Shown here: one piece after another, positions 4,279 to 31,607 of the stretch
How the letters are laid out: each line of letters begins with the position of its first letter
Position numbering within the stretch: position 1 is the first letter of the stretch
Assembly (NCBI GenBank): GCA_030267965.1
Contig: BRYA01001094.1
Coordinates: 4,000 to 35,606 of the forward strand
Source: Triparma columacea
Lineage: Eukaryota > Sar > Bolidophyceae > Parmales > Triparmaceae
Reading direction: 5' to 3'
DNA length: 31,607 bases
Notes under the pieces: model-generated
Told to the model about the DNA's origin: nothing
What the model saw: the letters and a program-made list of their open reading frames with translations, nothing else
Database searches by the model: none
Program-made: the position numbers and the translations under genes

Positions 4279-5861
4279 ATGAATAATGGTACATCGAAAC
4301 GTCAACAGCAAAAAAAGAAAAAGGCTTCGAAGGCCAAGTCAAAGAGTGGTTCTTCCCAAGAGCCGAGGCTTGAACTTCGGCAGGAGCGGCTCTCGGGTGT
4401 TGGGGTCGGAGGACAAACCCTTGAGCTTTTGGATTCAGAGTACTCTAAACTTCGCTCCCTCGGTCTCAACATCCCTCCTCCTGTCCCTCTCGCCGACAGT
4501 GAATTAGCATTTGGTCACAACAATGATCACCTCGCCCACGTGGATCTCGAGGACGAGGCTTTCTCGTCTTGGTACCGGAAGACTGCAGGAATGCACACTG
4601 TTCGGACATGGTGCGAAAATTACATGAAGCATCCCTATGCTTGGGGGGCTTTGATAATGATCCACGGGGTGGACGAGGTTAGCGCTAGGCTGAGGTCCAA
4701 GGTTGAGAACTATGCCGTTTACAGTGCAGTGCTCCTATCTGCTAGTGTCGTCCTGCTGGCCATGACGGAAATGAATGTGAAGTTTAGCAAATTGAATAAT
4801 TCTGGAGAGGCAGTTGACATGGTGATGGCGCGGGTATACCTTTACTCGCTGTGTGTGTCGGTAGCTTCTCATCTGACGAGCATTCTCCTTTCAATGAGCT
4901 TCGTCAATAGTTTGAATGAGGCCGGCAGGGACTCTGATGTGATCCGGATGTTCGGGGAGGTGAGATGGAAAAAGAGGTTACCGTGACTAGACAAAACTAA
5001 CGTCCTACTAACGCCCTTTATCTTCCTTCTCCTCTCCCCCCCTCCCCCCCCTTTCTATCTTCCGCCCTTTTTCACTTTCCCCCTCAGGGCCAAGGCTTCC
5101 TTGCTACCCTCAAGTGCGGCCAGGCTTTTCAAGCTGGGCTGGTTGCCCTTGGTGTGAGCATCATTGACATTATAGCGATCAACTTTGAGTGGTACGACGG
5201 TTTGATTTGCTTCGTTGTAGCTGGAATCATAATGCGTGTTCTACCCTCGACTGCCAACAAGCTCTTCAGCTCAAGTTCGCTCATGTTCTACTGGAGGTTC
5301 GGGAGGGCAGAAGACAATGAGGATCCCTTCAACTTGAAGGTGCCGCTCGAGCGGGTCCTACTGAAGTCTAAGATTTCTGAGAGGTTGTATGGGATTTTGT
5401 CGGGGAGGAGGTGAGGGAAATCATCGCCAGGGAGGAACGAGGCACTGCGAAGCGCCAATCGAATGCAGGACGAAGCGAAAGTAATTTAAGTTTTCTCTAA
5501 CCCACACCTCACACCCTTCATTCCGCATCCCTTCCGTTCGCACAGTGATCTTGGGGGCGAGGGCGAGGAGAAGGAAATGAGGGTGAGGGAAAGGCTCAGG
5601 GATGAGCGAAGAGAGAGTGATGCGATCAAGAAGTACATAGATTCCAGACATGACAAGAAGACTGGTAGAACACCCACGAATAAGATGGCGTCGTTCAAAG
5701 AAGGTGATGGGGGCGACATTGTTCAGTCCTTCTTTAGCGAGGATAACGCCAGAGAAGCCACAAAGGACCTCGAAGAGCTCGCTCTTATGAACAACGCCAT
5801 GGAGCAGGGATTATCCCTAACAGGAATATTGGGGAGTCCCATGGAGAATAAGCTAAAGTAA
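4279..5861 (+). CDS. Four-TM protein resembling ORAI-type calcium channels
   Basis: The exons are 4279-4959, 5088-5410 and 5546-5861 (donors GTGAG, acceptors CTCAG and CACAG), joining to 439 residues. The start is the ATG at 4279, followed by a Lys-rich tail. Four hydrophobic segments lie near residues 146-166, 187-211, 235-257 and 263-282, and a charged, probably helical C-terminus follows. Segment 1 follows a basic stretch (ARLRSK) and contains LLAMTEMNV with Glu164; segment 2 contains ASHLTSILLSMS with His198; segment 3 contains VSIIDIIAINF with Asp254. ORAI channels have a pore Glu in TM1 (E106 in ORAI1), a TM2 His (H134) and a TM3 acidic residue (E190). The His-to-acidic spacing of 56 matches. 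I therefore infer a store-operated-type Ca2+ channel homologue, but similarity is weak and an unrelated membrane protein is possible. The gene structure is firmer than the family. Confidence 0.6.
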
Positions 5862-5945
5862 AGTGCGTTCTTCATGCTGAACAAATTCAAAAAGTCTGTA
5901 GGGATTACTGTAGTAAAGTAAAGTGCGTTCTTCATGCTGAACAAA
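5854..5945. repeat. 32-bp direct repeat, two copies 60 bp apart, over a stop codon
   Basis: The 32-bp sequence starting TAAAGTAAAGTGCGTTCTTC occurs at 5854-5885 and again at 5914-5945. The first copy spans the TAA stop of the ORAI-like gene. The interval between copies also shares CTGTAGGGATT/CTGTAG-like words with what follows, so a 60-bp unit was probably duplicated in tandem in the 3' UTR. Confidence 0.85.
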
Positions 5946-6113
5946 AATTCAAAGTGTAGGATTCCTGTAGGGCAAGGGTGTTCCCACTCAAGTGGTCACT
6001 ATTTTACTCAGCAGCCTTGTTAGTAAAGCCACCAGGCCCTCGTTCTTTTCCTCTCGCCCCGTTTAGTGCTTTTGCCCCTCGCGAGCCTCATCATTAAACT
6101 TTAGCCCTTCATC

Positions 6114-9044
6114 ATGGAGGAGCAAAACAATTATCCCGTCCTTGTTATCGGCCGAGAAGTGAAAGGACAGGTGAGGAGAGCCTTGGATTTTGGGAGATTG
6201 TAACCCTCAGCCGGGCTGTCCGCGATCACCTTCGTGGCTCTGGTTTCGCCGTCCTCCCTCCAGAGATACAACAACACTCATCCAACCCCCCCACCCCTCC
6301 ACCCCCCGTCACCCCAATCCTGCCCCCCACCCCAGGGATCATCCAGGTATGTTTCGTTTCGGCTGTCACTCCCTGCCAACCTCCACACGACTCTGGCTGA
6401 CGGCAGCACTCTCGACTACGTGAACACCCGGTACTCTTATGTTGAGGCTCTTCGAACCAGGTGAGAATGGCAAGAACCATTATTTTGAAGGAGCACGAGC
6501 ACACGCCCATGAATACCCGTCCTGCGCGCTCCTACCCGCTAACGCAATGTTTCCCTCTCAGCCTCCTCCAAAGTTTCCCCGCCCTCGACCTGCCCGTGCT
6601 GGACTCGAAGCGCCTCTTGGGTTCTCTGTCCTCCTCTGTCGTGAACCAGCGCACCCGCATCATAAACAACTTCCTCCGGACCTGCCAGGAGAGCGACACT
6701 ATAAAGGCGTCGAGGCAGTGGGGGGAGTTCCTCAGGGGGCAGAAGCCCGGGGATCCTCCGGGGACCCCAAGGACGCCGACCAACAGGGAACTCAGGGGCG
6801 AGGGGAGGTCGGACGCGGCCCCGGCGCCTGGTCTGTCGGAGAATCCTGCGGCCGTAAGGGGGATGAGTTTCGGCTGGTTGTTGGAAAACCTTGGCCTCAA
6901 CGGGGGGGAGCAGCCTGACGTCACCTCTCCCCTCCCAGAGTACGCTGCTGAGGAGGGGTCTGCTCCGCCCGCCCAGTCGCCTCCAACCAATACGAGGGAG
7001 TCTATTTCGAACGACGTGGACAGCGATGATGAGGACGACTTGGAGACAGTTATAGCGAACGGGGCTGCAATTGCCACGCCCAGGCAGGTAATGAGACAAG
7101 AGTATTACAGGATGGTTCAGGAGGCGAGGGGCAAGTCTCGGCCTGTCAACCGCAATCTCTTCGTCGGGACGCCCGAAGAGCTTGAGAAGGTGAGAGTGGG
7201 TTGGGAGGAGTTATCTTGTCGCCTTTCAATTCACTGAACGCACTCCTTCCCGCCCCGCAGGGGGAGACCTTCTCCAAGTTCGTAATCCGGTCTTTGCCTC
7301 CCCTTGTGTTTGAGTTCATCGGTTGCTTCTTCCTTGGGCTTGTCGTGAACTTTGTCCGCTCCGGTCCCTCCTCAGGCTTCACCTCCAATGTCTCCTACCT
7401 GTCCCCCCAGCTCTTCACCCTGGGGTTTGCCGTGTCAGCCCTGACCTTCTCGATGGGGCACGTCTCCGGGGGCCACATGAACCCCGCCGTCACCTTCACC
7501 GTGTGGCTCCGGAGGCACCTGACTTTCCCTCAGATGCTGGCCTACGTAGCGTTCCAGTTCCTGGGGTTCCTGGCCGCGGCCGTCGCGTCCGTGGAGGTCC
7601 TCGGCGGCATTCTCACGCCGACTGAAGTTAGGGTTCCCCACGCGTCTGGTGGGCTAGGTGAGGATGACCATGGCGATTAGCCAATGATGATGAGTGAAGT
7701 CCTCACTTATCTTATACTCACACTCAACCTCCTCCCCCCTTCTCCCCGTCCCCAGATACCATAAATTCCTTCGCCCTCACCTCAATTTTAATGTTTGCGG
7801 TCTGTTACACGGTCCTCTGTTCCTCCACCTCCGCTGCCCAGACCGGTAACTCCCATTTCGGTCTTGCCTCTGGTTTCTCCCTCGCCGTGGGCATGGTTAT
7901 AAGCGCCCTCGCCGGGACCGGGACCACCCTCAACACCTCCCTCGACGTGTCCCTTATCTGCGCCAAGTTCTTCTACGACTCTGACTTCCCTGACCTCGAG
8001 GTTTGGGACGGGTACGCAAAGTTCAGGGGCAACGGGGACGAAGACATGTGGTACTACCTCGCCGGCCCTGCCGCCGGCGCCTTCCTCGCCGCTCTAGCGT
8101 ACCGTTACGTGAAGATGACCGCCTTCACGAAGCGCTCCCACGGCTGTATAAACGCCTCCCTCAAGGTGGTCGCCCCCTACCTCGTCGAGTGCATGGGAAC
8201 GTTCGCCATTGCCTTCACCTGGATGGCAGCCTTCCCGAGCGACGGGACCAGCGACGAGGGGTGGGCGTCGCTGGCGGCGGTCTACATGGGAATGACGGTG
8301 GCAATGTCTTATGCGGGGGGGTTCATTAGCGGGGGACACTACAACCCGGCGGTGACGTTGGCCGTGGTGGTGCAGGGGAAGCTCTCAAAGGTCAACTTCT
8401 TCATATACGTTTTCTTTCAGATTGTGGGCGCGGCGGGGGCCGGGACGGTCTTCTGGGAGATCTTCTCTAAGACCCCCGTTCCCGCAATCGGGGCCGGGGT
8501 ATCTGAGGTGAACGCGGGGGTCATGGAGGGCCTCTTCTCTTACTTTCTGGCGTTTGTGTTCCTGAACAGCGCCGCCGCCAAGGACAACAGGGGCAACAGT
8601 TTCTTTGGAATTTCCTACGGCTCCGTCCTCTATGTTTCCACCACCCTGATCGGGAGGATGACCTCCGGCCTCGTCAACCCTGCCGTCGCAATCGGTGCGT
8701 TCGGGGCTCGCAACTTCTTCAACGGCGGGGGGGCCGATTACCTCGACGGCCTGGAGGATTCTTGGGTGTCTGCGGGCGTGCCCATGGCGGGGGCGCTGGT
8801 GGCGGCTCTTACGTTCCGGGCGTGCGAGGTTGGGGGGATGTACCTTCCCTGCCCCTCGTTCTGCCGGTGCCCGGGCCGGGGGGGGGGGAGAGGGGGGGAG
8901 GAGGACGAGGAGGGGAACTACGACGGGATGGAGATGGCAGACAGGATGAGCAGCCTGCCTCCTGAGAGGGGGGCGGGGAGCGAGGGGAGCATCCCTGTTG
9001 CTCGGGCGGTAAGAGGATCGTCGATGGAGATGGGACGAGTGTAG
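6114..9044 (+). CDS. PX domain fused to two tandem aquaporin (MIP) domains
   Basis: The inferred exons are 6114-6170, 6336-6460, 6562-7189, 7261-7657 and 7756-9044. All donors are GTGAG and the acceptors are pyrimidine-rich, giving 831 residues. Residues about 5-110 read as a PX phosphoinositide-binding domain: YVSFRLSLP, then RYSYVEAL (Arg51-Tyr52), LLQSFPALDLPVLDSKRLLG, and R-RIINNFL. An acidic, Pro-rich linker reaches residue 270. MIP module 1 (271-520) has SGGHMNPAVT (Asn344) in its first half; in its second half the NPA position reads TLNTSLD (Asn462). MIP module 2 (530-790) has SGGHYNPAVT (Asn599) and SGLVNPAVAIG (Asn710). That makes about 12 TM helices. Neither second motif has the usual NPAR arginine. 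The C-terminus is Gly/Glu-rich. I infer a water/solute channel tethered or sorted by phosphoinositides. Exon 1 and its junction are the least certain part. Confidence 0.85.
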
Positions 9045-12601: not shown

Positions 12602-13057
12602 GGTTTTAATGAAATGGAAAGACGAAAAGATAATTCGGAATCATCATGTTAATAAATATAGCTTTCAAACAAGGTAAGAAGGACAACAATGACAATTATG
12701 ACCCTTGTTAAGGCTTTTCCCACTCGTTACCCGTCCTATCGTTCCTTCTTCTTCCCCGCCATTCAACCAAAAGAGCCAAGATACCCCCCCTCTTTAATCG
12801 TGGCCGAGTGGATTCATGAAGTTTTTCCGTCTTATAGACGAGATAATACTACTTTGGGCCCCATTTACGATATTGTTAAACATCATGTTTGCGGTAACAT
12901 GGGGCAGAGAACCGCCATTGACGCATACTTGAGGGTATCACCATCCCTCTCTCTTGTTCTTCGTCCATCACACAACTCTAACCCTGCTTATTCCGTCAAC
13001 AATTTACGAATTCCTAGAGAGTTAGTTTGACTGTCGCCATTTTTTACACCTTCTTCG
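12602..13057. repeat. Dispersed repeat copy B in the divergent promoter region
   Basis: This 456-bp gap separates the start codons of the WHxH-SUMO gene (minus) and the MYND-LRR gene (plus). From 12671 to about 12965 it carries the second copy of the repeat seen at 10209-10518. Just before it, AATAAATATAGCTTTCAA (about 12650-12667) resembles the sequence at 11495-11512. An open frame at 12689-13030 gives a 113-residue translation with no recognisable motif; it is not open in copy A, so I do not call a gene. Confidence 0.7.
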
Positions 13058-15109
13058 ATGCCAGGTACTTGTGCTCATTGCAAGAAACCATCAGCAAGAG
13101 CTCGATGTTCATTATGCAAGGCTGTTTATTACTGTGGTCGTGAATGTCAGCGTTTGGACTTCAAGACCCACAAGCGTACATGCCGCAAACTTTCCGGGGA
13201 AAGAATGGGGAATAGCAGATCAGCAGTGTACTCTGGTGTAGAGAGATTCGTGAACAACAATGAACTCACGGAGGTGACTTTTGCAAAGGGAGTGACAAAG
13301 ATTGACATTCAAGCCTTCTTCGGATGCTCCTCCCTCACGGACATCACCATTCCTGACGGAGTGACAACGATTGGCGAGGGTGCCTTCTTAGGATGCTCCT
13401 CCCTCACGGCCATCACAATTCCAGACGGAGTGACGATAATTGGCAATGATGCCTTCTCTGGATGCTCCTCCCTCACGGCCATCACCATCCCGGATGGAGT
13501 GACGACAATTGGCGTTCAAACCTTCTTCGGATGCTCTTCCCTCACGGCGATCACCATCCCGGATGGAGTGACTACAATTGACAAAAACGCCTTCAACAGA
13601 TGCTCCTCCCTCACGACCATCACAATTCCAGACGGAGTGACGATAATTGGCCTGGGCGCCTTCTACAGATGCTCCTCCCTCACGGCCATTACCATCCCGG
13701 ACTCAGTGACAACGATTGGTGAGGGCGCCTTCTATGAATGCTCCTTCACGACCATCACAATCCCGGATGGAGTACCGATAATTGACGCTGACACCTTCAA
13801 CGGATGCTTCTCCCTCACGGCCATCACAATCCCGGATGGAGTGACGACAATTGGCGCACAAGCCTTCTTTAGATGCTCCTCCCTCACGGCCATCACCATC
13901 CCGGACGGAGTGACGACAATTGGCTGGAGTGCCTTCGAAGAATGCTCCTCCCTCACGGCCATCACCATTCCGGACGGAGTGACAACTATTGACAGAGGCG
14001 CCTTCAAAGGATGCTCCTCCCTCACGGCCATCACCATCCCAGACGGAGTGACGACAATTGGCGAGGGTGCCTTCGAAGGATGCTCCTCCCTCATGGCCAT
14101 CACAATCCCAGACGGAGTGATGAAGATTGGCGATGGCGCCTTCTCTGGATGCTCCTCCCTCACGGACATCACCATTCCGGACGGAGTGACAACGATTGGC
14201 GAGGGTGCCTTCTACGAATGCTCCTCCTTCACGACCATCACAATCCCGGATGGAGTAACGATAATTGACGGTGACACCTTCTCTGGATGCTCCTCCCTCA
14301 CGGACATCACCATTCCTGACGGAGTGACAACGATTGGCGATAAGACCTTCTTAGGATGCTCCTCCCTCACGGCCATCACCATTCCGGACGGAGTGACAAC
14401 AATTGGCAAGGGCGCATTCGCTGGATGCTCTTCCCTCACAGCCATCACAATCCCGGACTCAGTGACGACAATTGGCATGGGCACCTTCCACAGATGCTCC
14501 TCCCTCACGGCCGTCACCATCCCGGACAATGTGACAATGATTGACCAGGGCTTCTTCTACGGATGCTCCTCCCTCACGACCATCACCATCCCAGTTGGAG
14601 TGACGTCGATTGGCAATAGTGCCTTCGAAGGATTCTCCTCCCTCACGGCCGTCACAATCCCTGACGGTGTGACGATGATTGAAATTGAAACCTTCAGGGG
14701 ATGCTCCTCCCTCACGGCCATTACCATCCCGGACGGAGTGACGTCGATTGGCTGTGAAGCCTTCAGTGATTGCCCCGCCCTGACGAAACTCATTCTATCT
14801 CCTGTCGTTTCCATCGGTGAAGACTGCTTCGAAAATTGCACCGCCTTAATCACTGCCGCTGCCGATCAAAATATGCCGACTGTCTCGGACCTCCTCCATT
14901 ACAGGTGGCATCGCAAAAACGCTGTGATCGAACGCGTCAACGCTCTTCTGTGCCTCAAGGGAAGCTGGGATCATGTGGAGAGTCAACCCAGTGGACTGGA
15001 TAGTCTGAAGCAGAAGAAAATGGACGGAGTTGAAGCCCCGCTAAAGAGGACTGAGGCACGTGACAAGATCCCGAAAGTTTTGTGGAGAGTAATTCTGGAA
15101 TATCTATAA
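13058..15109 (+). CDS. MYND zinc finger fused to BspA-type leucine-rich repeats
   Basis: A single exon of 683 residues has its ATG at 13058. Residues 5-42 form a MYND finger with all ligands: Cys5-Cys8, Cys17-Cys20, Cys26-Cys30, His38-Cys42. From about 75 to 585 run about 22 units of 23 residues with the consensus GCSSLTAITIPDGVTTIG--AF, the LRR_5/BspA type. One unit near 13741 is one residue short. The C-terminal 95 residues (LLHYRWHR, ERVNALLCLK, WRVILEYL) close the solenoid and recur in the gene at 22895. MYND domains and LRR solenoids both bind proteins, so an adaptor or recognition role is inferred. Units are very similar at DNA level, suggesting recent expansion or gene conversion. Antisense open frames across this gene are by-products of the 69-bp period. 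Confidence 0.9.
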   Translation: MPGTCAHCKKPSARARCSLCKAVYYCGRECQRLDFKTHKRTCRKLSGERMGNSRSAVYSGVERFVNNNELTEVTFAKGVTKIDIQAFFGCSSLTDITIPDGVTTIGEGAFLGCSSLTAITIPDGVTIIGNDAFSGCSSLTAITIPDGVTTIGVQTFFGCSSLTAITIPDGVTTIDKNAFNRCSSLTTITIPDGVTIIGLGAFYRCSSLTAITIPDSVTTIGEGAFYECSFTTITIPDGVPIIDADTFNGCFSLTAITIPDGVTTIGAQAFFRCSSLTAITIPDGVTTIGWSAFEECSSLTAITIPDGVTTIDRGAFKGCSSLTAITIPDGVTTIGEGAFEGCSSLMAITIPDGVMKIGDGAFSGCSSLTDITIPDGVTTIGEGAFYECSSFTTITIPDGVTIIDGDTFSGCSSLTDITIPDGVTTIGDKTFLGCSSLTAITIPDGVTTIGKGAFAGCSSLTAITIPDSVTTIGMGTFHRCSSLTAVTIPDNVTMIDQGFFYGCSSLTTITIPVGVTSIGNSAFEGFSSLTAVTIPDGVTMIEIETFRGCSSLTAITIPDGVTSIGCEAFSDCPALTKLILSPVVSIGEDCFENCTALITAAADQNMPTVSDLLHYRWHRKNAVIERVNALLCLKGSWDHVESQPSGLDSLKQKKMDGVEAPLKRTEARDKIPKVLWRVILEYL

Positions 15110-20148: not shown

Positions 20149-22493
20149 TCACCAGTAATCGCGCAATGACCAGGAGCCGGCGGCAAAGGCGTCTCTTAAC
20201 TGGCCTGCGGAGAAGCCTGCGCCCTTGACCTCTTGAGGTGTGAAGCCGGCATTGAGTAGAGACTGTGGATCTATATATATATTAGCGCCCTTGATCTCTT
20301 GAAGTGTGAAATACGCTAGATCATAACCGCCTGCTATGCACTCCGCTGGGCTGAAGCCCGCCTCCTTGCACTGGTAGCATGAAAAGGAGGCGTCTTTAAA
20401 GTAGCCTGCGGAGAAGCCTGCGCCCTTGATCTCTTGAAGTGTGAAGCCGACACTGAGTAGATCCGCTAGATTATAACCGCCTGCTCTGCACTCCGCTGGG
20501 CTGAAGCCCGCCTCCTTGCACTGGGAGTATGACAAGGCGGCGTCTTTAAACTCGCCTGAGGAGAAGCCTGCGCCCTTGATCTCTTGAAGTGTGAAGCCGG
20601 CACTGAGTAGATCCGCTGGATCATAACCGTCTGCTCTGCACTCCGTCGGGTTGAAGCCCGCCTCCTTGCACTGGGAGCATGACAAGGAGGCATCTTTAAA
20701 CTCGCCTGAGGAGAAGCCTCCATCCTTGATCTCTTGAAAACTAAAGCCAATGTCGTAAATTTCCTTGCTGGTGTACCCCTCTTGCTTGAGAGTCACGCTC
20801 GGAGTTCCCTCAGCGCGATAAAAGCACAACATGGTCAGGCGTTCTTCTCCACTAGGGACAGGCCACGACCTCATCGAACCGATCATGTTGATGCTAGGAG
20901 CGGCGAGGAGGAGGTCCACGGCGCTCCTCTTCTGACTGGGCCTAGATGGCGCGCCAATCTTCCTACGCGTGCTGAGCAAGACCCTTGCCGTGGCAGTCTC
21001 CGTCTCGGGGATCTTCACGGAAGATCTCAGGCTTCTGAGGCGGTTCAGAAAGTTGATCAGCTCCTCTGCCTTGCCTTTGCCCTCCTCGGCTCCGTCGTAG
21101 TCGTCGGCGTTGTTGCACTTGACCTGGAAGCGGCGCCACTTGGACACAAGTTCCTCGGCATCGCGAATCAGCTGAGCCACGTGCTGCAAACGTGCGGGCC
21201 CGACGCCACCGTCGGGCTCGCCGTCGTAGCCTCCGTCGCTAGAAATGGTGTCGTCGATGGCCTCCTTGAGGGCCTTAAGCCTTCTGGCCTCGTCGTAGTC
21301 TTCTGAGCGGCCTGCCTTCTTCTGAGCCTTCCCGACGTGATGGGAGGAGTCGATGAGGAGCTGGACGAGGGCAGTGCGCGCCTCCTCCTGCTCTTGTAGG
21401 GCGGTCACAATAGTCGTCTTGAGCGCATCATGTTCCGGGCGCAGCACCTCAACATCGACTTCCGCCTCGGCCTCGGAAAAAGGCGCTTCACCATCGGTGT
21501 TGATGCCAGAGTCATTCCACTCCCACCCGAACGCGGCCATCCTCTTTCCCTTAAAACTGTGGTGCATCGAGAACTGCTTGGAGAGAAACTCGAGCTCGTT
21601 TAGGGCGTAAACGGCTTCGGTGCCGAAGCACTCGAGAAGCTCCTTGGCGGCTTGGAAAGTTGCTACGACATCGTCGGAAAAAGACTCGCCCTGCGATGAG
21701 CAAATAAGGAGGAGGTCAGACGTTAAAATAATAATTTTGACGCTAGCGTCCCGCAAACAGGGTCTCTCACCTCCTGAAAATGGAAGTTAGCGTTGCGCTT
21801 GTCGTAGACGTGTTGGGCAGCGTTGACGAGTGTATTGACGTTCGTCGCCGTGCCTGGGGCGAGATGAGCGGTCTGGTGGGCCAGTACCTGCTCAGACGTG
21901 GAAGGAGCGTCAGGGTCTGAGGACTTTGGCGGGGCGAGTATCTGCTTGAGCAGGTACATGACGTCTCCGCTTGCGTCGCCGTAGTCGGTGATGTAGTACT
22001 TGTACAAGCGTTTCTGGTCCGCGACGCGGGTTATGGCGCCGCTGATACCCCTTCCGATGATCTTGAAGATACGGCGAAGGTAGTCTTCGTTCGTGAGCTC
22101 GAGGGGGAAGTAAAGTTCATAGGAGTCGGTGGGGGAACGCCTCACAGTGCACTTTTGCAGTGACTTTGGTGGTAGCCACGGGTTGTCGGCTAGCTCTGGA
22201 CCGTCCGCGTTGCGCGACGCGCGTTGGAGGAGCTGGCCCGTCCTGTGATCCTTGTCTTGCTTCTTGCGTCCCCTGCCTCCTCCTCCTCCATGACGTCCCC
22301 TTCCTTGATTTCTCCCTCCTCCTCCTTGGTCTCTTCCCCCGCCCCCGTTGTGCTGCCCCCCCCCCCGCCCCCCCCTTCCCCTACCGCCCCCTCCTCCCCG
22401 GTTGCCCCTCCCCCTCCCCCTCCCTTGTCCCCTTCCTTGATTCTGACGTCCCCTCCCTTCTCCATTCCCATGGCCATGCGCAAATGACGACAT
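20149..22493 (-). CDS. RGG-rich protein with possible HEPN motif and decapeptide repeats
   Basis: The exons are 21771-22493 and 20149-21690 (phase 0; donor CAGGAG|GTGAGA, acceptor CATCGCAG), giving 754 residues. Residues about 8-78 are Gly/Arg-rich with many RGG/GRG elements, an RNA-binding low-complexity type. At the end of exon 1, DKRNANFHFQE contains Arg233-X4-His238, the R-X4-6-H signature of HEPN domains, with helical sequence on both sides continuing into exon 2 (FQAAKELLECFG). A mostly helical, acidic stretch with coiled-coil character follows (about 300-470). From about 551 to 742 run roughly 19 decapeptides of the type GFTLQEIKGA/GFSSGEFKDA/QCKEAGFSPAEC, organised in 50-residue (150-bp) higher-order units. 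I infer an RNA-associated protein; the HEPN assignment is tentative. A fragment of its repeats lies in the downstream relic. Confidence 0.72.
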
Positions 22494-22894
22494 GACAAAC
22501 TGCCTCTGGCGAAAATATGGGTTACTGAAAAGCTACTGATAGATTTTCACGTCCTAGAAAGGTGTTCACTTGCTTGGAAATACTGGGTGAAAATCTGAGT
22601 CTTGTTTGGGGCGATCAATTTTGCTTTGGGGTGGGTTTTGAAAAAAACCTGGTCCGTCGTATTCTCGAGCTATAGTCGTGGGCTAGTAGAATTTTGAGTA
22701 AAAGATTGCATTTATTGGTGTATTGATAAATATATCGTTGGATTTGGGGAAGAACATGCTCCATGGAAATAAATACTGGTGTGTGTAACTGCCCTACCTT
22801 TCTAACTCATCTTCCCTGACCCGCAATTTACGCGTACCCTCTTTCGAATCACCATCGAATCACCATCGAATCACCATCAGTAGGGACCTTCATT
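22494..22894. promoter_or_regulatory. Divergent region with 11-bp triple repeat
   Basis: These 401 bp separate the start codons of the RGG/decapeptide gene (minus) and the second LRR gene (plus). Close to the LRR gene, CGAATCACCAT is repeated three times in tandem (22845-22877), 18 bp before the ATG at 22895. The rest is AT-rich without recognisable coding. Confidence 0.6.
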
Positions 22895-24346
22895 ATGCCC
22901 AAATCAGCAGTATACTCTGGCAAGGAGAGATTCCATTATGATCGTGAACTCACAGAGGTGATTTTTGCAGAGGGAGTGACGTCGATTGGCTATGGCGCCT
23001 TCTTGGAATGCCCCTCCCTTGCAGCCATCGCAATCCCAGACGGAGTGACGACGATTGGCAATGACGCCTTCCACGGATGCTCCTCCCTCTTAGCCATCAC
23101 AATCCCGGACGGAGTGACATCGATTGGCAATGACGCCTTCTGGGGATGCTCTTCCCTCGCAGCCATCACAATCCAGGAAGGATTGAAGACAATTGGCAAT
23201 GATGCCTTCTATGAATGCTCCTCCCTCGTAGCCATCACAATCCCGGAAGGAGTGACCACAATTGGCAATGGCGCCTTCGACGGATGCTCCTCCCTCACGG
23301 CCATCACAATCCCGGACTCAGTGACAACGATTGGTGAGGGTGCCTTCCAAAGATGCTCCTCCCTCACGGCCATCACCATCCCTGACGGAATGACGATGAT
23401 TGGCAATTGGGCCTTCGCAGCATGCTCCTCCCTCACAGCCATCACAATCCCGGACTCAGTGACAACGATTGGTGAGGGTGCCTTCCAAAGATGCTCCTCC
23501 CTCACGGCCATCACCATCCCGGAGGGAGTGACAGCGATTGGCAATGATGCCTTCTTGGAATGCTCCTCCCTCGCAGCCATCACAATCCAGGAAGGATTGA
23601 AGACAATTGGCAATGATGCCTTCTACGAATGCTCCTCCCTCGTAGCCATCACAATCCCGGAAGGAATGACCACAATTGGCAAGGGCGCCTTCGAGAGATG
23701 CTCCTCCCTCACGGCCATCACAATCTCGGACTCAGTGACAACTATTGGCAAAAGTGCCTTCTACAGATGCTCCTCCCTCACGGCCATCACCATCCCGGAG
23801 GGAGTGACATCGATTGGCATTGGCACCTTCTACGAATGCTCCTCCCTCGCGGCCATCACCATCCCGGACTCAGTGACAACGATTGGCGATGGCGCCTTCT
23901 CTGAATGCTCCTCCCTCACGGCCATCACCATCCCGGACGGAGTGACGAAGATTGGCAATAGTGCCTTCGCTGATTGCTCCTCCCTCACGGCCATCACCAT
24001 CCCGGACTCGGTGACGTCGATTGGTCTAAACGCCTTCAGAGATTGCGTAGCCCTGACTCGGCTCAGTTTATCTCCCGCTGCCACCATCTATGAAGGCTGC
24101 TTCTCAAACTGCGCTGCCCTACTCTCTGCCGCTGCCGAACAAAACATGACTGTCGAGGAACTCCTACATTCTAGGTGGCACCGCATACGTGAACGCGTCA
24201 CCGTTCTGACCTGCCTCAAGACACTCTTTACTACCCAAAAAGAGAGGAAGCTACTGGACTGCGGTGAAGCGCAAATACTTGGGGTAACTGCAACACGCAA
24301 GAGGCTCCCGAAGGATATGTGGAGAGTTATTCTGGAATTTCTGTAA
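22895..24346 (+). CDS. BspA-type leucine-rich repeat protein (no MYND finger)
   Basis: A single exon of 483 residues has its ATG at 22895. It starts MPKSAVYSGKERF, matching the sequence right after the MYND finger of the gene at 13058 (SAVYSGVERF). It then has about 16 LRR_5 units of 23 residues (CSSLTAITIPDGVTTIGN-AF) and the same C-terminal cap (LLHSRWHR, ERVTVLTCLK, WRVILEFL). The two genes are paralogues, one of which gained or lost the MYND exon-equivalent. A block containing the unusual unit AAITIQEGLKTIGNDAFYE occurs twice, 414 bp (six units) apart, showing an internal block duplication. A protein-binding solenoid role is inferred from the repeat family. There is no signal peptide or TM segment, so it is probably intracellular. 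Confidence 0.88.
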   Translation: MPKSAVYSGKERFHYDRELTEVIFAEGVTSIGYGAFLECPSLAAIAIPDGVTTIGNDAFHGCSSLLAITIPDGVTSIGNDAFWGCSSLAAITIQEGLKTIGNDAFYECSSLVAITIPEGVTTIGNGAFDGCSSLTAITIPDSVTTIGEGAFQRCSSLTAITIPDGMTMIGNWAFAACSSLTAITIPDSVTTIGEGAFQRCSSLTAITIPEGVTAIGNDAFLECSSLAAITIQEGLKTIGNDAFYECSSLVAITIPEGMTTIGKGAFERCSSLTAITISDSVTTIGKSAFYRCSSLTAITIPEGVTSIGIGTFYECSSLAAITIPDSVTTIGDGAFSECSSLTAITIPDGVTKIGNSAFADCSSLTAITIPDSVTSIGLNAFRDCVALTRLSLSPAATIYEGCFSNCAALLSAAAEQNMTVEELLHSRWHRIRERVTVLTCLKTLFTTQKERKLLDCGEAQILGVTATRKRLPKDMWRVILEFL

Positions 24347-27022: not shown

Positions 27023-28552
27023 TTACATGTGAATGCTAGAAATGTGCCTCTTGATATCGCCTCTCAGCTTCGCCTTATATCCACACCCTTCTTGCGGGCA
27101 TGTATGCCATGTTACGCCAATATCGTGAATATTAGCAAGGTGGGTCTTGAGGTGTTGTTTCTGCTTAGTCCTATATTCACACCCTGCTTGTGGGCATGTA
27201 TGCCAAGTTACACCGATGCCGTGAGCATTAGCAAGGTGTAGCTTGATATTGCATCTCTGCTTCGCCTTATATTCACACCCTTCTTGCGTGCATGTATGCC
27301 AGGTTACACCAATATCGTGAATATTAGCAAGATGGATCTTGATACTATCTCTCTTCTTCGTCTTATAATTACACCCTTCTTGCGGGCATGTATGCCATAT
27401 TACGCCAATGTTGTGAACGTAAGCAAGGTGATCCTTGATAGAGCTTTTCTCCTTCGCCTTATATTCACACCCTTCTTGCGGGCATGTGTGCCAGGTTACG
27501 CCAATATTGTGAATACCAGCAAGGTGCCTCTTGAGAATACCTCTTTGCTTCGCCTTATATTCACAGCCTTCTTGTGGGCATGTATACCAAGCTACACCAA
27601 TGCCGTGAGCATTAGCAAGGTGTAACTTGATATTGCATCTCCTCTTCGCCTTGTATTCACACCCCTCTTGCGAGCATGTATGCCATGTTACGCCTATGTC
27701 GTGAACATCAGCAAGGTGCCTCTTGATAACGTCTCTCTGCTTCGCCTTATATTGACACCCTTCTTGCGGGCATGTATGCCAAGCTACACCAATGCCGTGA
27801 ACATTAGCAAGGTGCTTCTTGATACTATCTCTCTGCTTCGCCTTATGTTCACACCCCTCTTGCGGGCATGTATGCCAGGCTACGCCAATATCATGACTTT
27901 GAGCAAGGTGCCTATTGATTTGGCCTCTCTCCTTCGCCTCATATTTACACCCCTCTTGCGGGCATGTATACCACGTTACGCCAATATCGTGAATATTAGC
28001 AAGGTGCCTCTTGATGTCACCTCTCTTCTTCGCCTTATGTTCACATCCTTCTTGCGGGCATGTATACCATATCGTGCTAATACTGTACTGAGACTTCTTT
28101 TCATACTTAGGCTCATATTCATCATCATCATTTTCACCACCATTACCATCACCATCCCAAGAGTCATCGTCCTCATCATAGTCTTCTTCGCTATTGTCGT
28201 AAGTGTATTCCATTGTCGTCTCTCTCTTTCTCTCATTGCTCCTGCTGTTAGTCTTCCCTTCAGCAATAACCTCCTCATCCTCATCACATGGTTGGCAAAC
28301 AAGCAGATCATGCCGCACCTCGTTACTGTCCTCAATAATCTCCCCGCTCCCCGATTCTTCGGCACCACTCACTGTCGATCTACCCTTGCTGCCTCCTTGA
28401 AACTCAGCAAGGATACCCAGGTCCCCCGGTACAACTTCTTCCAACACGAATTCATCAATTATGGTGATACTAGGCGCAAATATGTCAATATGGGACCTCG
28501 GATCTCGACAAGTCACGGGAATTTCCGATGTGGACTCTTCTCTTGGTCGCAT
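27023..28552 (-). CDS. C2H2 zinc-finger protein with 11 tandem fingers
   Basis: A single exon of 509 residues starts at the ATG at 28552. The first 160 residues are acidic and low-complexity (Glu/Asp/Ser, for example EEDYDEDDDSWDGDG). From about 160 to the end run 11 fingers of 32 residues with the pattern YTCPQEGC-YKAK-R--IK-HLAN-HDIGVTW. The ligands are C-X4-C-X12-H-X4-H and all are intact. The linker is HDIGVTWHTC rather than TGEKP, which is unlike animal Kruppel arrays. The last finger ends two residues before the stop. A DNA- or RNA-binding role is inferred; the acidic N-terminus could be an activation or interaction region. Open frames on the plus strand across the array arise from the 96-bp period. 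Confidence 0.9.
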   Translation of the reverse strand: MRPREESTSEIPVTCRDPRSHIDIFAPSITIIDEFVLEEVVPGDLGILAEFQGGSKGRSTVSGAEESGSGEIIEDSNEVRHDLLVCQPCDEDEEVIAEGKTNSRSNERKRETTMEYTYDNSEEDYDEDDDSWDGDGNGGENDDDEYEPKYEKKSQYSISTIWYTCPQEGCEHKAKKRGDIKRHLANIHDIGVTWYTCPQEGCKYEAKERGQINRHLAQSHDIGVAWHTCPQEGCEHKAKQRDSIKKHLANVHGIGVAWHTCPQEGCQYKAKQRDVIKRHLADVHDIGVTWHTCSQEGCEYKAKRRCNIKLHLANAHGIGVAWYTCPQEGCEYKAKQRGILKRHLAGIHNIGVTWHTCPQEGCEYKAKEKSSIKDHLAYVHNIGVIWHTCPQEGCNYKTKKRDSIKIHLANIHDIGVTWHTCTQEGCEYKAKQRCNIKLHLANAHGIGVTWHTCPQAGCEYRTKQKQHLKTHLANIHDIGVTWHTCPQEGCGYKAKLRGDIKRHISSIHM

Positions 28553-28944
28553 AGGGCTATAGAACCCTCAAAATAAATCCAGTATTTCTTTCTGTGGATC
28601 CGTGGAGTTGTGGAGGGAGAAAAATAGAAAAATGATTGAGGAATATGCATTTTTTGGCCTTCTTCATTTTTCGTCATTCTGCCGTCTTTATCTCCAATTT
28701 TTAGCCAATAATCTCACTTAGTGTGTATAACAGTGTAGTCGTATTGTTGTAGTATAATCTCCAAATTTGACAGCAAAAAGGAGGAGTGCAAAGAGGCTCG
28801 ACTTCTTTCCCCCTTTCCTAAAGGACACTTTTTGGACACTTTTTGGAGACTTCTTCTATCTAAACTATTACATACGATTATATATGTGGATGTGATACAC
28901 ATATATATACAAATACACATATATACACAGCACAATAACTAAAT
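28553..28944. promoter_or_regulatory. Divergent AT-rich region with short tandem repeats
   Basis: This 392-bp gap lies between divergent starts at 28552 (minus) and 28945 (plus). GGACACTTTTT occurs twice in tandem at 28823-28844. An AT-rich ATATATG/ACACATATATA stretch (about 28875-28930) directly precedes the plus-strand ATG and may hold its core promoter. No RNA gene is seen. Confidence 0.45.
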
Positions 28945-30807
28945 ATGGATTACTACTCTTCCTCATCCTCCTCCCCCTCATCACCAGCCTCATCAACAAC
29001 ATCGTCAATCACTTCATCGCCGTTATTACGTCAATCAAGTCATTCTACAAATACGTCTACAAATACAACAACAATACATACATCAAATTCCCTCCATTCC
29101 ACCTCCAATTCCTCATCATCTTTACCTCTTAATCCTCTACAGTTGGATTTAAAGTTGGATTTAAACAACTTCCTAAACTTCACACACCCTCCTAACTCAT
29201 CCCCTAACCCTCCTCCCCAACCCCTCTCCTCCACTACAACAATGTCCTCCACAACAATGTCCTTCCCTTACCTAGATTCAACCCCCCAAGTTAAACTCCC
29301 CCCAGCCTCTCTTCCAAAGCCTACCTTAATCTACCCCCCATGCAGCCCTCCAAGTTACTTTACAAACCTCCTTCAAACCCTCCCTCCATCTACACGTAGT
29401 ACACCCTCACCCCTACATACAAACACACACTCCTACTCCTCAATGTCATGGTTTGATACTACGGGTGTGTCACTAAGTAGGAGCACACAGGATGTAGAGT
29501 ACAAGGTAGAACCGAGGGATCTAGGTGTGGGTGATAACGTTGATTGTGTTTTGGTAGGGTTGGTTTATTACCTAACCAGGACCAAGTCCCAAGTCAGGTT
29601 TAATTCACATATCTACAATAAGGGTGATATACCTACAGAGAGGAATCTACAATCCTCCTTCTCGGATTCGTGTTGTTGGGATAGTATAGTTTCGTCAGTA
29701 ACTTCCTACGTAACTTTCCACCAATCATCATTCGTTACAACCATGTCAGTCGGTTGCGGTATGACTTCCCCCACCACCTCCTCCCAAGGTAACAGAGATA
29801 TACAAGATTTAAACACAGTCCATAACTCCCCTCCTACTCATGGTTCCAACAACATGTGGGGTAGTAACGGTGGTGAGGAGAGTGATGAACTTTCGAGGTT
29901 ATGGAGTAAGGCTATATACATTGAAATCGAGGACCTGAGTCGTTGTGTAGACCCTGTAGGAGTAGATAGTGGGATGGAAAAATGGGTTAAATGTAGGATG
30001 GATGGTATATTCAAACGAGTTAACTCAACTCGATACCAAGCGCAACGAACGTTAGCAGAGGACTCCACACGTACGATGTTAATACTAGGAACTGAGTGGT
30101 ATAAGGATTTAGAGATATGGTGGAGTGGGATTAAGGAACACTGCGATGAAGTAGATAAGTGTGTAACAGCCATGGGCTCCAGCATCCATAACACCACCTC
30201 CTCCTCCTCCCCAACACCCTTACTTCCATCTTGTTACGGTAATACTATAGTGGGGGGATGGTGGGTAACACGTTCTATTGTATACGATGGTTTAGTAGGT
30301 AGAAGGGGAAGGAATAAATGGGAATGGGAGGAAGGATGGAGGTGTGATAACAAGGGGGGAAGAAGACACGGGGGAGGTGAGATTAAGGATGGATGGAAGG
30401 TTGGAGTTCACTTGGAAGATAAGGAGGGGGGGGGGGGAGAAGGGAGGGATGATAAGACGATAAGTAAAGGGGAGGATAAGGAAACGAGGGGAGGAGAGGA
30501 TTGGGGGGAAATTAGGAAGAAAAGAAGGTTGATTTCGGTTAGGGATATGGGGGTAGGGGAGGACGAAGAGAACAACGACGACGGTGGAGGAATGAGTGGA
30601 GGTGAGGATGATAATTGGGATGATATAGAGGAGGATAAATATAATCACGATCGCTCGGAGGAGGAGGAGGATGAGGATAGTGCGTACTGGAGTGATATGT
30701 CTGAAGTTTCAGACATTATTGAGGGACAAACAAACAACGAAGGAGACGAGGACGAAGAGGATGTAGAGGATAAGGAAGGAGGGTGGGATGTTGAGGAATC
30801 TGATTAA
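28945..30807 (+). CDS. Unrecognised protein with Ser/Thr/Pro-rich N-terminus and acidic tail
   Basis: A single open frame of 620 residues starts at the ATG at 28945. I do not recognise it. Residues 1-175 are Ser/Thr/Asn/Pro-rich and probably disordered. Residues about 176-330 are more ordered (VEPRDLGVGDNVDCVLVGLV, SFSDSCCWDSIVSSVTSYV) and include several Cys. Residues 310-430 have a Trp-rich helical character (SRLWSKAIYIEIEDLSRCVD, EKWVKCRMDGIFKRVN, EWYKDLEIWWSGIKEHCDEV). From about 460 the chain becomes Gly/Lys-rich and then strongly acidic (DDWDDIEED-type, EEEDEDSAYWSDMSEVSDI). Codon use is richer in ATA, GTA, TTA and AGG than most neighbours. It could be a nuclear protein judging by the acidic tail, but that is a guess. 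It faces the minus-strand terminal-exon repeats. Confidence 0.65.
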   Translation: MDYYSSSSSSPSSPASSTTSSITSSPLLRQSSHSTNTSTNTTTIHTSNSLHSTSNSSSSLPLNPLQLDLKLDLNNFLNFTHPPNSSPNPPPQPLSSTTTMSSTTMSFPYLDSTPQVKLPPASLPKPTLIYPPCSPPSYFTNLLQTLPPSTRSTPSPLHTNTHSYSSMSWFDTTGVSLSRSTQDVEYKVEPRDLGVGDNVDCVLVGLVYYLTRTKSQVRFNSHIYNKGDIPTERNLQSSFSDSCCWDSIVSSVTSYVTFHQSSFVTTMSVGCGMTSPTTSSQGNRDIQDLNTVHNSPPTHGSNNMWGSNGGEESDELSRLWSKAIYIEIEDLSRCVDPVGVDSGMEKWVKCRMDGIFKRVNSTRYQAQRTLAEDSTRTMLILGTEWYKDLEIWWSGIKEHCDEVDKCVTAMGSSIHNTTSSSSPTPLLPSCYGNTIVGGWWVTRSIVYDGLVGRRGRNKWEWEEGWRCDNKGGRRHGGGEIKDGWKVGVHLEDKEGGGGEGRDDKTISKGEDKETRGGEDWGEIRKKRRLISVRDMGVGEDEENNDDGGGMSGGEDDNWDDIEEDKYNHDRSEEEEDEDSAYWSDMSEVSDIIEGQTNNEGDEDEEDVEDKEGGWDVEESD

Positions 30808-31607
30808 AAACACCACACCCCAACCGTGTAAGGCTTTTACTGTTTTTGTTTAAAAAAAAAAGTGCTAAATCCTTAAAAACCTTTATACATGTCCCTAGTC
30901 CTCCCCCTCCATGTCTTGCCTAAGGTTCTCCCTGCTGACCTCCCTGCTCATGCCGACCTTCCTCTCCTCCTTGTTAACCTCATCGAACGGTGTTTTAATG
31001 TACATCTCCCCCCCCCCCTTATTAGCTAGCGCAGTTTTAAGGTGGTCCGTAATAAGGCTAACCCTAACATTAAAACCCCCACCCCAACCGTGTAAGGCTT
31101 GCTTTGTTTTTGTTAAAAAAAAAAAAGTGCTAAATCCTTAAAAAGCCTTTATACATGTCCCTAGTCCTCCCCCTCCATGTCTTGCCTAAGGTTCTCCCTG
31201 CTAACCTCCCTGCTCATGCCGACCTTCCTCTCCTCCTTGTTAACCTCATCGAACGGTGTTTTAATATACCTCTCCCCCCCCCCCTTATTCGCTAGCGCAG
31301 TTTTAAGGTGGTCCGTAATAAGGCTAACCCTAACATTAAAACCCCCACCCCAACCGCGTAAGGCTTTTCCTGTTTTTGTTAAAAAAAAAAAGATGCTAAA
31401 TCCTTAAAAACCTTTACACATGTCCCTAGTCCTCCCCCTCCATGTCGAGCCTAAGGTTCTCCCTGCTGACCTCCCTGCTAATGCCGACCTTCCTCTCCTC
31501 CTTGTTAACTTCATCGAACGGTGTTTTAATATACATCTCCCCCCCCCCCTTATTCGCAAGCGCAGTTTTAAGGTGGTCCGTAATAAGGCTAACCCTAACA
31601 TTAAAAC
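30808..31607 (-). repeat. Three tandem ~265-bp units, each with the same minus-strand terminal exon
   Basis: Three near-identical units repeat with periods of 264-266 bp (anchor CAACCG at 30821, 31085 and 31351). Each has, on the minus strand, an intron-like stretch ending ATGTTAG, a 169-nt coding-like segment ending TAG, and an AT-rich spacer with a poly-A/T run. The coding segments are 30895-31063, 31161-31329 and 31426-31594. They share a reading frame VSLITDHLKTALANKGGGE then (M/R)YIKTPFDEVNKEERK and a MEGED C-terminus. An 11-G run is kept at exactly the same length in all three, preserving frame. The host gene lies to the right of the window. Confidence 0.8.
31426..31594 (-). CDS. Terminal exon, copy 3 (nearest the upstream gene), partial gene
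   Basis: This 169-nt segment runs from a probable acceptor (GTTTTAATGTTAG) to a TAG at 31426-31428. It encodes about 55 residues, charged and probably helical, ending LRLDMEGED. It would be the first terminal exon met by a transcript entering from the right. Protein family is not recognised. Whether it or copies 1 and 2 (30895-31063, 31161-31329) are used cannot be told from sequence. Confidence 0.5.

Follow-up and report, generated by a model that had tools for sequence, protein, structure and literature searches.

A PX domain followed by two unequal aquaporin-type modules in a predicted protein of a bolidophyte-like stramenopile

Here we describe a protein-coding gene of a bolidophyte-like stramenopile, the predicted product of which is composed of a PX domain, an acidic linker, two six-helix MIP modules with a connector between them, and a C-terminal tail. 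Judged by sequence comparison, this PX-MIP-MIP layout is that of a real, conserved family and not of a gene pair joined by mistake, because an ORF of Triparma pacifica and other relatives share it. As to what such a protein may do, the best explanation, to which we assign a probability of about one half, is a channel of internal membranes that is positioned by PI3P and in which the two modules have unequal roles.

Gene structure and the question of one gene or two

The window, that is, the whole stretch of 31,607 nucleotides that was analysed (C700:4000-35606), comes from a genome assembled in 789 contigs with 37.85 Mb in total. The gene lies on its plus strand and consists of exon 1 (6114..6170; residues 1-19 with the start ATG), exon 2 (6336..6460), exon 3 (6562..7189), exon 4 (7261..7657) and exon 5 with the stop codon (7756..9044). 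Splice sites and reading frame were checked for all the exons, the start region was aligned with relatives, and exons 2 to 5 were aligned at their junctions. Each of the four introns (6171-6335, 6461-6561, 7190-7260 and 7658-7755) starts with GTGAG and ends with AG after a pyrimidine-rich stretch, and the spliced coding sequence of 2496 nt gives 831 residues with no internal stop. Since all the introns carry a stop in the frame entering from upstream (at 6201, 6462, 7235 and 7678), the 831-residue protein can be made only by splicing. In the alignment, junctions 1, 2 and 3 are gap-free in every relative covering them (five, five and eight, respectively). At junction 4, P0001, P0002, P0003 and P0006 are gap-free, P0008 and P0009 have one additional residue in the vicinity, and P0004, P0005 and P0007 have gaps there. 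The five exons, four junctions and 831 residues proposed in a preliminary description of this DNA are thus upheld by the open coding sequence, the form of the introns and the stops within them. It is to be noted that this gene model is derived from genomic DNA while its transcriptome counterpart is the T. pacifica ORF.

A search with the full-length protein, in which scoring was limited to the approximately 8,000 candidates with most words in common, gave 18 proteins at E ≤0.001. Half of them (P0001-P0009) are close relatives, and four of these nine are full-length proteins with both PX and MIP: P0001, an ORF of 814 aa from the T. pacifica transcriptome MMETSP0785, which is collinear with the window protein and 76% identical over 99%; P0002, 845 aa and also from MMETSP (61% over 99%); P0004, 827 aa (55% over 98%); and P0005, 923 aa (44% over 97%). 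P0009 is partial and ends inside module 1; its PX domain has 23.4 bits (cut-off 21.6). The others, P0003, P0006, P0007 and P0008, start at the linker or at the first helix, do not have PX, and are probably truncated gene models. A second, profile-based search (21 proteins; again about 8,000 candidates scored) gave no additional full-length member.

Is it then possible that a PX gene and a neighbouring MIP gene were falsely joined by the exon model? The gene of the window species is known here from genomic DNA alone, and the protein collection does hold the two parts separately: one is P0019, found by the profile search, which has 300 aa, contains PX only and is near-identical to part of the window protein, and the other is P0031, a 250-aa module 2 protein with 99% identity to the corresponding part. 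However, P0019 starts with window intron 1 read in frame and ends with VRVGWEELSCRLSIH, which is window intron 3 up to its stop. Because both its ends are made of intron letters, P0019 is to be regarded as the product of an intron-blind caller working on nearly the same DNA. Moreover, the T. pacifica ORF and three further full-length proteins run continuously through the whole layout. We therefore reject the false joining, which we consider very improbable. The pair of P0019 and P0031 is an observation in its own right: by intron-blind calling the PX-MIP gene has become two proteins, one with PX only and one with MIP only, and the number of PX-MIP fusions counted in databases is therefore likely to be too low.

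How is the conservation distributed along the protein? When the window protein is compared with P0001, P0002, P0004 and P0005, in this order, identity of PX is 88, 80, 78 and 57%; the linker has 80, 64, 60 and 54%, module 1 has 78, 62, 56 and 51%, and module 2 has 70, 55, 51 and 39%. In all the four full-length relatives, conservation of PX is higher than that of linker, tail and each of the modules, and module 1 is more conserved than module 2. In P0001 and P0005, a stretch of 22 residues about the connector has an even higher identity than PX.

Two MIP modules that are not alike

Pfam PF00230 (MIP) matches the window protein in two stretches with 142.4 bits against a cut-off of 25 (E 2.3e-41), and a Pfam scan down to E 1 found nothing but MIP and PX, with no PXA, RGS or PXC domain. 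The domain search and the search for orthologues that the preliminary description had recommended thus gave, respectively, PX and MIP both above the Pfam cut-off, and the collinear T. pacifica ORF with three other full-length relatives; the order PX-linker-MIP-MIP holds on both grounds. In an AlphaFold2 model of the relative P0001 (mean pLDDT 64.3), each MIP module has six long helices and two short half-helices. Fold comparison returned aquaporin matches, and the VIA-align rows listed are those of module 2.

Module 1 (residues 282-525; 7294..8123, with intron 4 inside), defined by Pfam and the model, has its first NPA at 7480..7488, while at the position of the second (7932..7940) NTS stands in place of NPA. 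A short connector (residues 526-540; 8124..8168) leads to module 2 (residues 541-762; 8169..8834), defined by Pfam and fold comparison, in which both NPA motifs are present in the motif alignment (8343..8351 and 8676..8684), the second being followed by V where R is usual. Thus, the window modules have three NPA motifs in total; module 2 has two of them and module 1 only one. Variation of the NPA motif is known among MIPs, and therefore module 1 stays in the MIP superfamily. Of the two complete MIP modules claimed previously, the fold is supported for both by the relative's model, but the motifs are complete in module 2 and not in module 1. Neither this inequality nor the missing arginine described below was a point of the preliminary description.

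The arginine at LE2 of the ar/R filter, which is typical of MIPs though not universal, is replaced by L in module 1 and V in module 2, and LE1 is T in module 1 and G in module 2. Among nine family members (P0009, whose first module 1 motif is NPV and not NPA, was left out of the filter comparison), the second motif of module 1 is degenerate in eight and the LE2 arginine is found in 0 of 18 modules. Module 2 keeps both NPA triplets intact in five of the nine, so that it is not uniformly canonical; its H2 position is Y in all the nine, and H5 is T, V, R, S or I. Since the arginine is missing, strict water selectivity seems unlikely, and judging from the residues the candidate substrates include ammonia, urea, peroxide and other small neutral solutes. 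Is the loss of arginine then a sign of decay? Twelve bacterial single MIPs nearest to module 2 were examined; the arginine is absent in every one, and nine have I-A-G-V. Because these nearest singles do not have it either, its absence is regarded as a feature of a wider group rather than decay.

Such bacterial AqpZ-like single MIPs with I-A-G-V are, among the matches listed, the closest singles to module 2 outside fragments of the family itself, and the AqpZ-like MIPs share with module 2 the missing LE2 arginine. They differ in having a single module and no PX, and family module 2 departs from them at H2 (Y) and H5. Diatom TpMIP1 and ToMIP2 are listed as AqpZ-like I-A-G-V MIPs in Table 1 of PMC4022174. 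The LIP subfamily treated in the same paper resembles the window protein in being heterokont MIPs with a hydrophobic LE2 (L or I). LIPs have, however, P at LE1 and, in 8/9, NPM as the second motif (PMC4022174), while the window protein has NTS with T in module 1 and NPA with G in module 2, that is, neither NPM nor P at LE1; membership in LIP was rejected.

No PX-MIP-MIP architecture was known to the preliminary description. Proteins with multiple MIP modules have been published: PMC11316224 reports that 1,101 of 7,541 MIP sequences have two or more MIP domains, several of them only partial, and assigns 624 of the 1,101 to SAR IX, a clade of ochrophyte and dinophycean sequences with three or four NPAs; the paper calls for more scrutiny. 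The window protein is similar to these SAR IX proteins in having more than one module in a chain and three NPA motifs, a likeness by these counts and not by a tree; it differs in its PX domain, a term that does not occur in the main text of PMC11316224. As to the fusion with PX, the claim stands within the literature matches listed in the open library, among which neither a PX-MIP fusion nor any tandem-MIP phrase was found. Therefore, double and multi-module MIPs are already known, and the PX fusion is new as far as those listed matches go.

A tree of 64 rows was built from modules and single MIPs (13 of at least 120 single-module matches were used), leaving out the partial module of P0009 and the partial first module of P0013, as well as P0016, P0017, P0018, P0026, P0029 and P0030. 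Family modules 1 form one clade (nine rows, 100/100) and family modules 2 another (nine rows, 100/99), so that the pair is older than the split of the family. Multi-module proteins without PX (P0014, P0015 and P0020-P0025) form two groups of their own elsewhere (18 rows, 100/99); P0010 and P0011 are grouped apart from these, and P0012 has long rows, the placement of which is uncertain. Deep forks are weak (54/87), and at this support duplication inside the family and fusion of two MIPs are not separated. There are four MIP modules in P0012 and P0020, and three complete ones with a partial one in P0013; these three may be covalent tetramers. P0021 has a C2 domain between its two MIP modules, and is a second case in which a lipid-binding-type domain is fused to tandem MIPs. 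It is like the window protein in this combination and unlike it in that the domain is C2, not PX, is placed between the modules, and is accompanied by modules of another clade.

The PX domain and a possible function

The PX domain covers residues 1-124 (6114..6751, with introns 1 and 2 inside). Pfam PF00787 matches residues 48-119 of the window protein with 26.9 bits against a cut-off of 21.6, and is also above cut-off in five relatives. A profile made of the six family PX sequences found sorting nexin-17 in PDB at E 2.6e-4, followed by SNX9 (0.0057) and SNX1 (0.013); both the Pfam and the PDB scores are modest. In the P0001 model the PX part has a PX-like order of strands and helices, with parts at pLDDT <50. 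After PX comes a conserved linker (residues 125-270; 6752..7189), mostly at pLDDT <50 in the model; with 25 D/E against 14 K/R in its 146 residues, it is acidic as was noticed at the outset. The tail (residues 763-831; 8835..9041) is unstructured in the model as well.

The PI3P motif given in PMC9692390, R[Y/F]-x23-30-K-x13-23-R, is found at R51-Y52, K77 and R91, at aligned positions in 6/6 family PX sequences; among shuffled PX sequences, 7.5% contain it through composition alone. In the R51-Y52-S53 triplet (6429..6437), R51 is the predicted contact of the 3-phosphate of PI3P, Y52 the predicted ring-stacking aromatic and S53 the predicted 'PIP-stop' serine, roles taken from PMC9692390 and PMC5843628; K77 (6608..6610) and R91 (6650..6652) are also predicted contacts. 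S53 is invariant in 6/6 PX sequences. In SNX3, the 'PIP-stop' serine S72 comes after R70 (PMC5843628), and from the same R-x-S spacing we infer that S53 may be its counterpart. Because the predicted PI3P contacts are invariant in the six PX sequences, lipid-controlled sorting or gating by PX, as was suggested in the preliminary description, is plausible.

How could such a protein work? In the explanation that we prefer, one membrane would hold both modules, and PX, linker and tail would be on its cytosolic side, where PI3P is. The ends of MIP modules lie on the cytosol side. As each module has six helices, its ends and the connector would come out on one side. Two such chains could then make up the four pores of an ordinary MIP assembly, in which each kind of pore would occur twice. 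PX would bind PI3P via R51/Y52, K77 and R91 on endosomal, phagosomal or vacuolar membranes, and this binding would hold or concentrate the channel on membranes of that identity, while the channel could be set free by phosphorylation of S53. Through its arginine-free filter, module 2 would conduct most of the water or small neutral solute, and module 1, with a degenerate second NPA and high conservation, may have a different, restricted or regulatory role. Retention or enrichment on PI3P membranes seems to be the most economical reading, with a tether in trans as its chief competitor; gating in cis is a further possibility.

In such a trans arrangement, the MIP pair would reside in the ER, the plasma membrane or some other compartment, and PX would grip PI3P on a second organelle to make a contact site, at which the channel would act. 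The idea has precedents: PMC9692390 lists SNX13, SNX14, SNX19, SNX25 and yeast Mdm1 as transmembrane PX proteins, describes such proteins as tethers between ER and endolysosomes or vacuole, and reports PI3P binding by the PX domains of SNX13 and SNX19. They are similar to the window protein in having PX and membrane helices in one chain, as seen here by Pfam and the relative's model, and a linker of 146 residues, mostly at low pLDDT, would be long enough to be in keeping with it. On the other hand, SNX13/Mdm1-type proteins are anchored to ER by terminal helices and have extra domains such as RGS (PMC9692390), whereas the membrane part here is a double MIP and PXA, RGS and PXC are all missing from the Pfam scan. 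We consider the tether unlikely, though to be taken seriously. Even less probable is that both modules have lost ordinary transport and remain as the membrane anchor of a PX adaptor in sorting. Such a non-conducting scaffold could be read out of the degenerate second motif of module 1, the arginine absent from all the family modules and the intact NPAs of module 2 in only five of nine members, but the arginine is also missing from the nearest bacterial single MIPs, and the full set of helices is kept in both modules of the model.

Beyond the PI3P-positioned channel, we put forward rather tentatively a broader idea of a channel that reads membrane identity: a covalent pair of unequal pores whose position, partner or opening would be set in cis or in trans by a PI3P-binding PX, with one of the pores non-canonical and yet under strong selection. 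If this is true, bolidophyte-like algae would have a lipid-coded channel of the aquaporin type. Delivery of MIPs to the correct membrane generally depends on sorting machinery separate from them. In PX-MIP, a phosphoinositide reader is likely to be built into the channel itself. The unequal joined modules would also offer a system for asking whether pores of two kinds can be combined in a MIP tetramer in a fixed 2+2 order. Diatoms and Parmales are sister groups, and the genomes of the latter have been read as those of phago-mixotrophs (PMC10328945); an endosomal or phagosomal channel could bear on how these algae handle ingested fluid.

The same genome and the rest of the window

An exon-wise search for the MIP family in the same genome gave at least five matches, of which three fall within this gene and two on contig C738. 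The latter locus (C738:9000-18000, L006, at about L006:2459-3388) is the only other MIP locus among the matches found and encodes a single MIP. By eye, without alignment, its second motif GPSMNPML looks LIP-like, with NPM, P at LE1 and L at LE2. The corresponding search for the PX family gave 23 matches, from which this gene is absent, its PX being split by an intron. A viral origin was also considered and rejected: 19 pattern matches in viral contigs were obtained and none was confirmed by tblastn. BFVD gave no match at E ≤0.001, the best one being a viral protein at E 9.7e-3.

Elsewhere in the window, a tandem duplication of about 60 bases (5854-5970) is located just upstream of the PX-MIP gene, past the end of the preceding ORF. 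Two long ORFs with BspA-type leucine-rich repeats lie on the plus strand (13031-15109 and 22820-24346) and are built of 69-base tandem units, the former having an N-terminal MYND finger. On the minus strand are an ORF with a region of decapeptide-type repeats (20149-21786; Pfam PF25296, 189.8 bits) and an ORF in which C2H2-type zinc fingers are arranged in tandem, the repeat unit being 96 bases (27023-28567). Finally, a 266-base tandem repeat is present three times, the copies being 94% alike, at 30807-31607, and reaches the end of the window.
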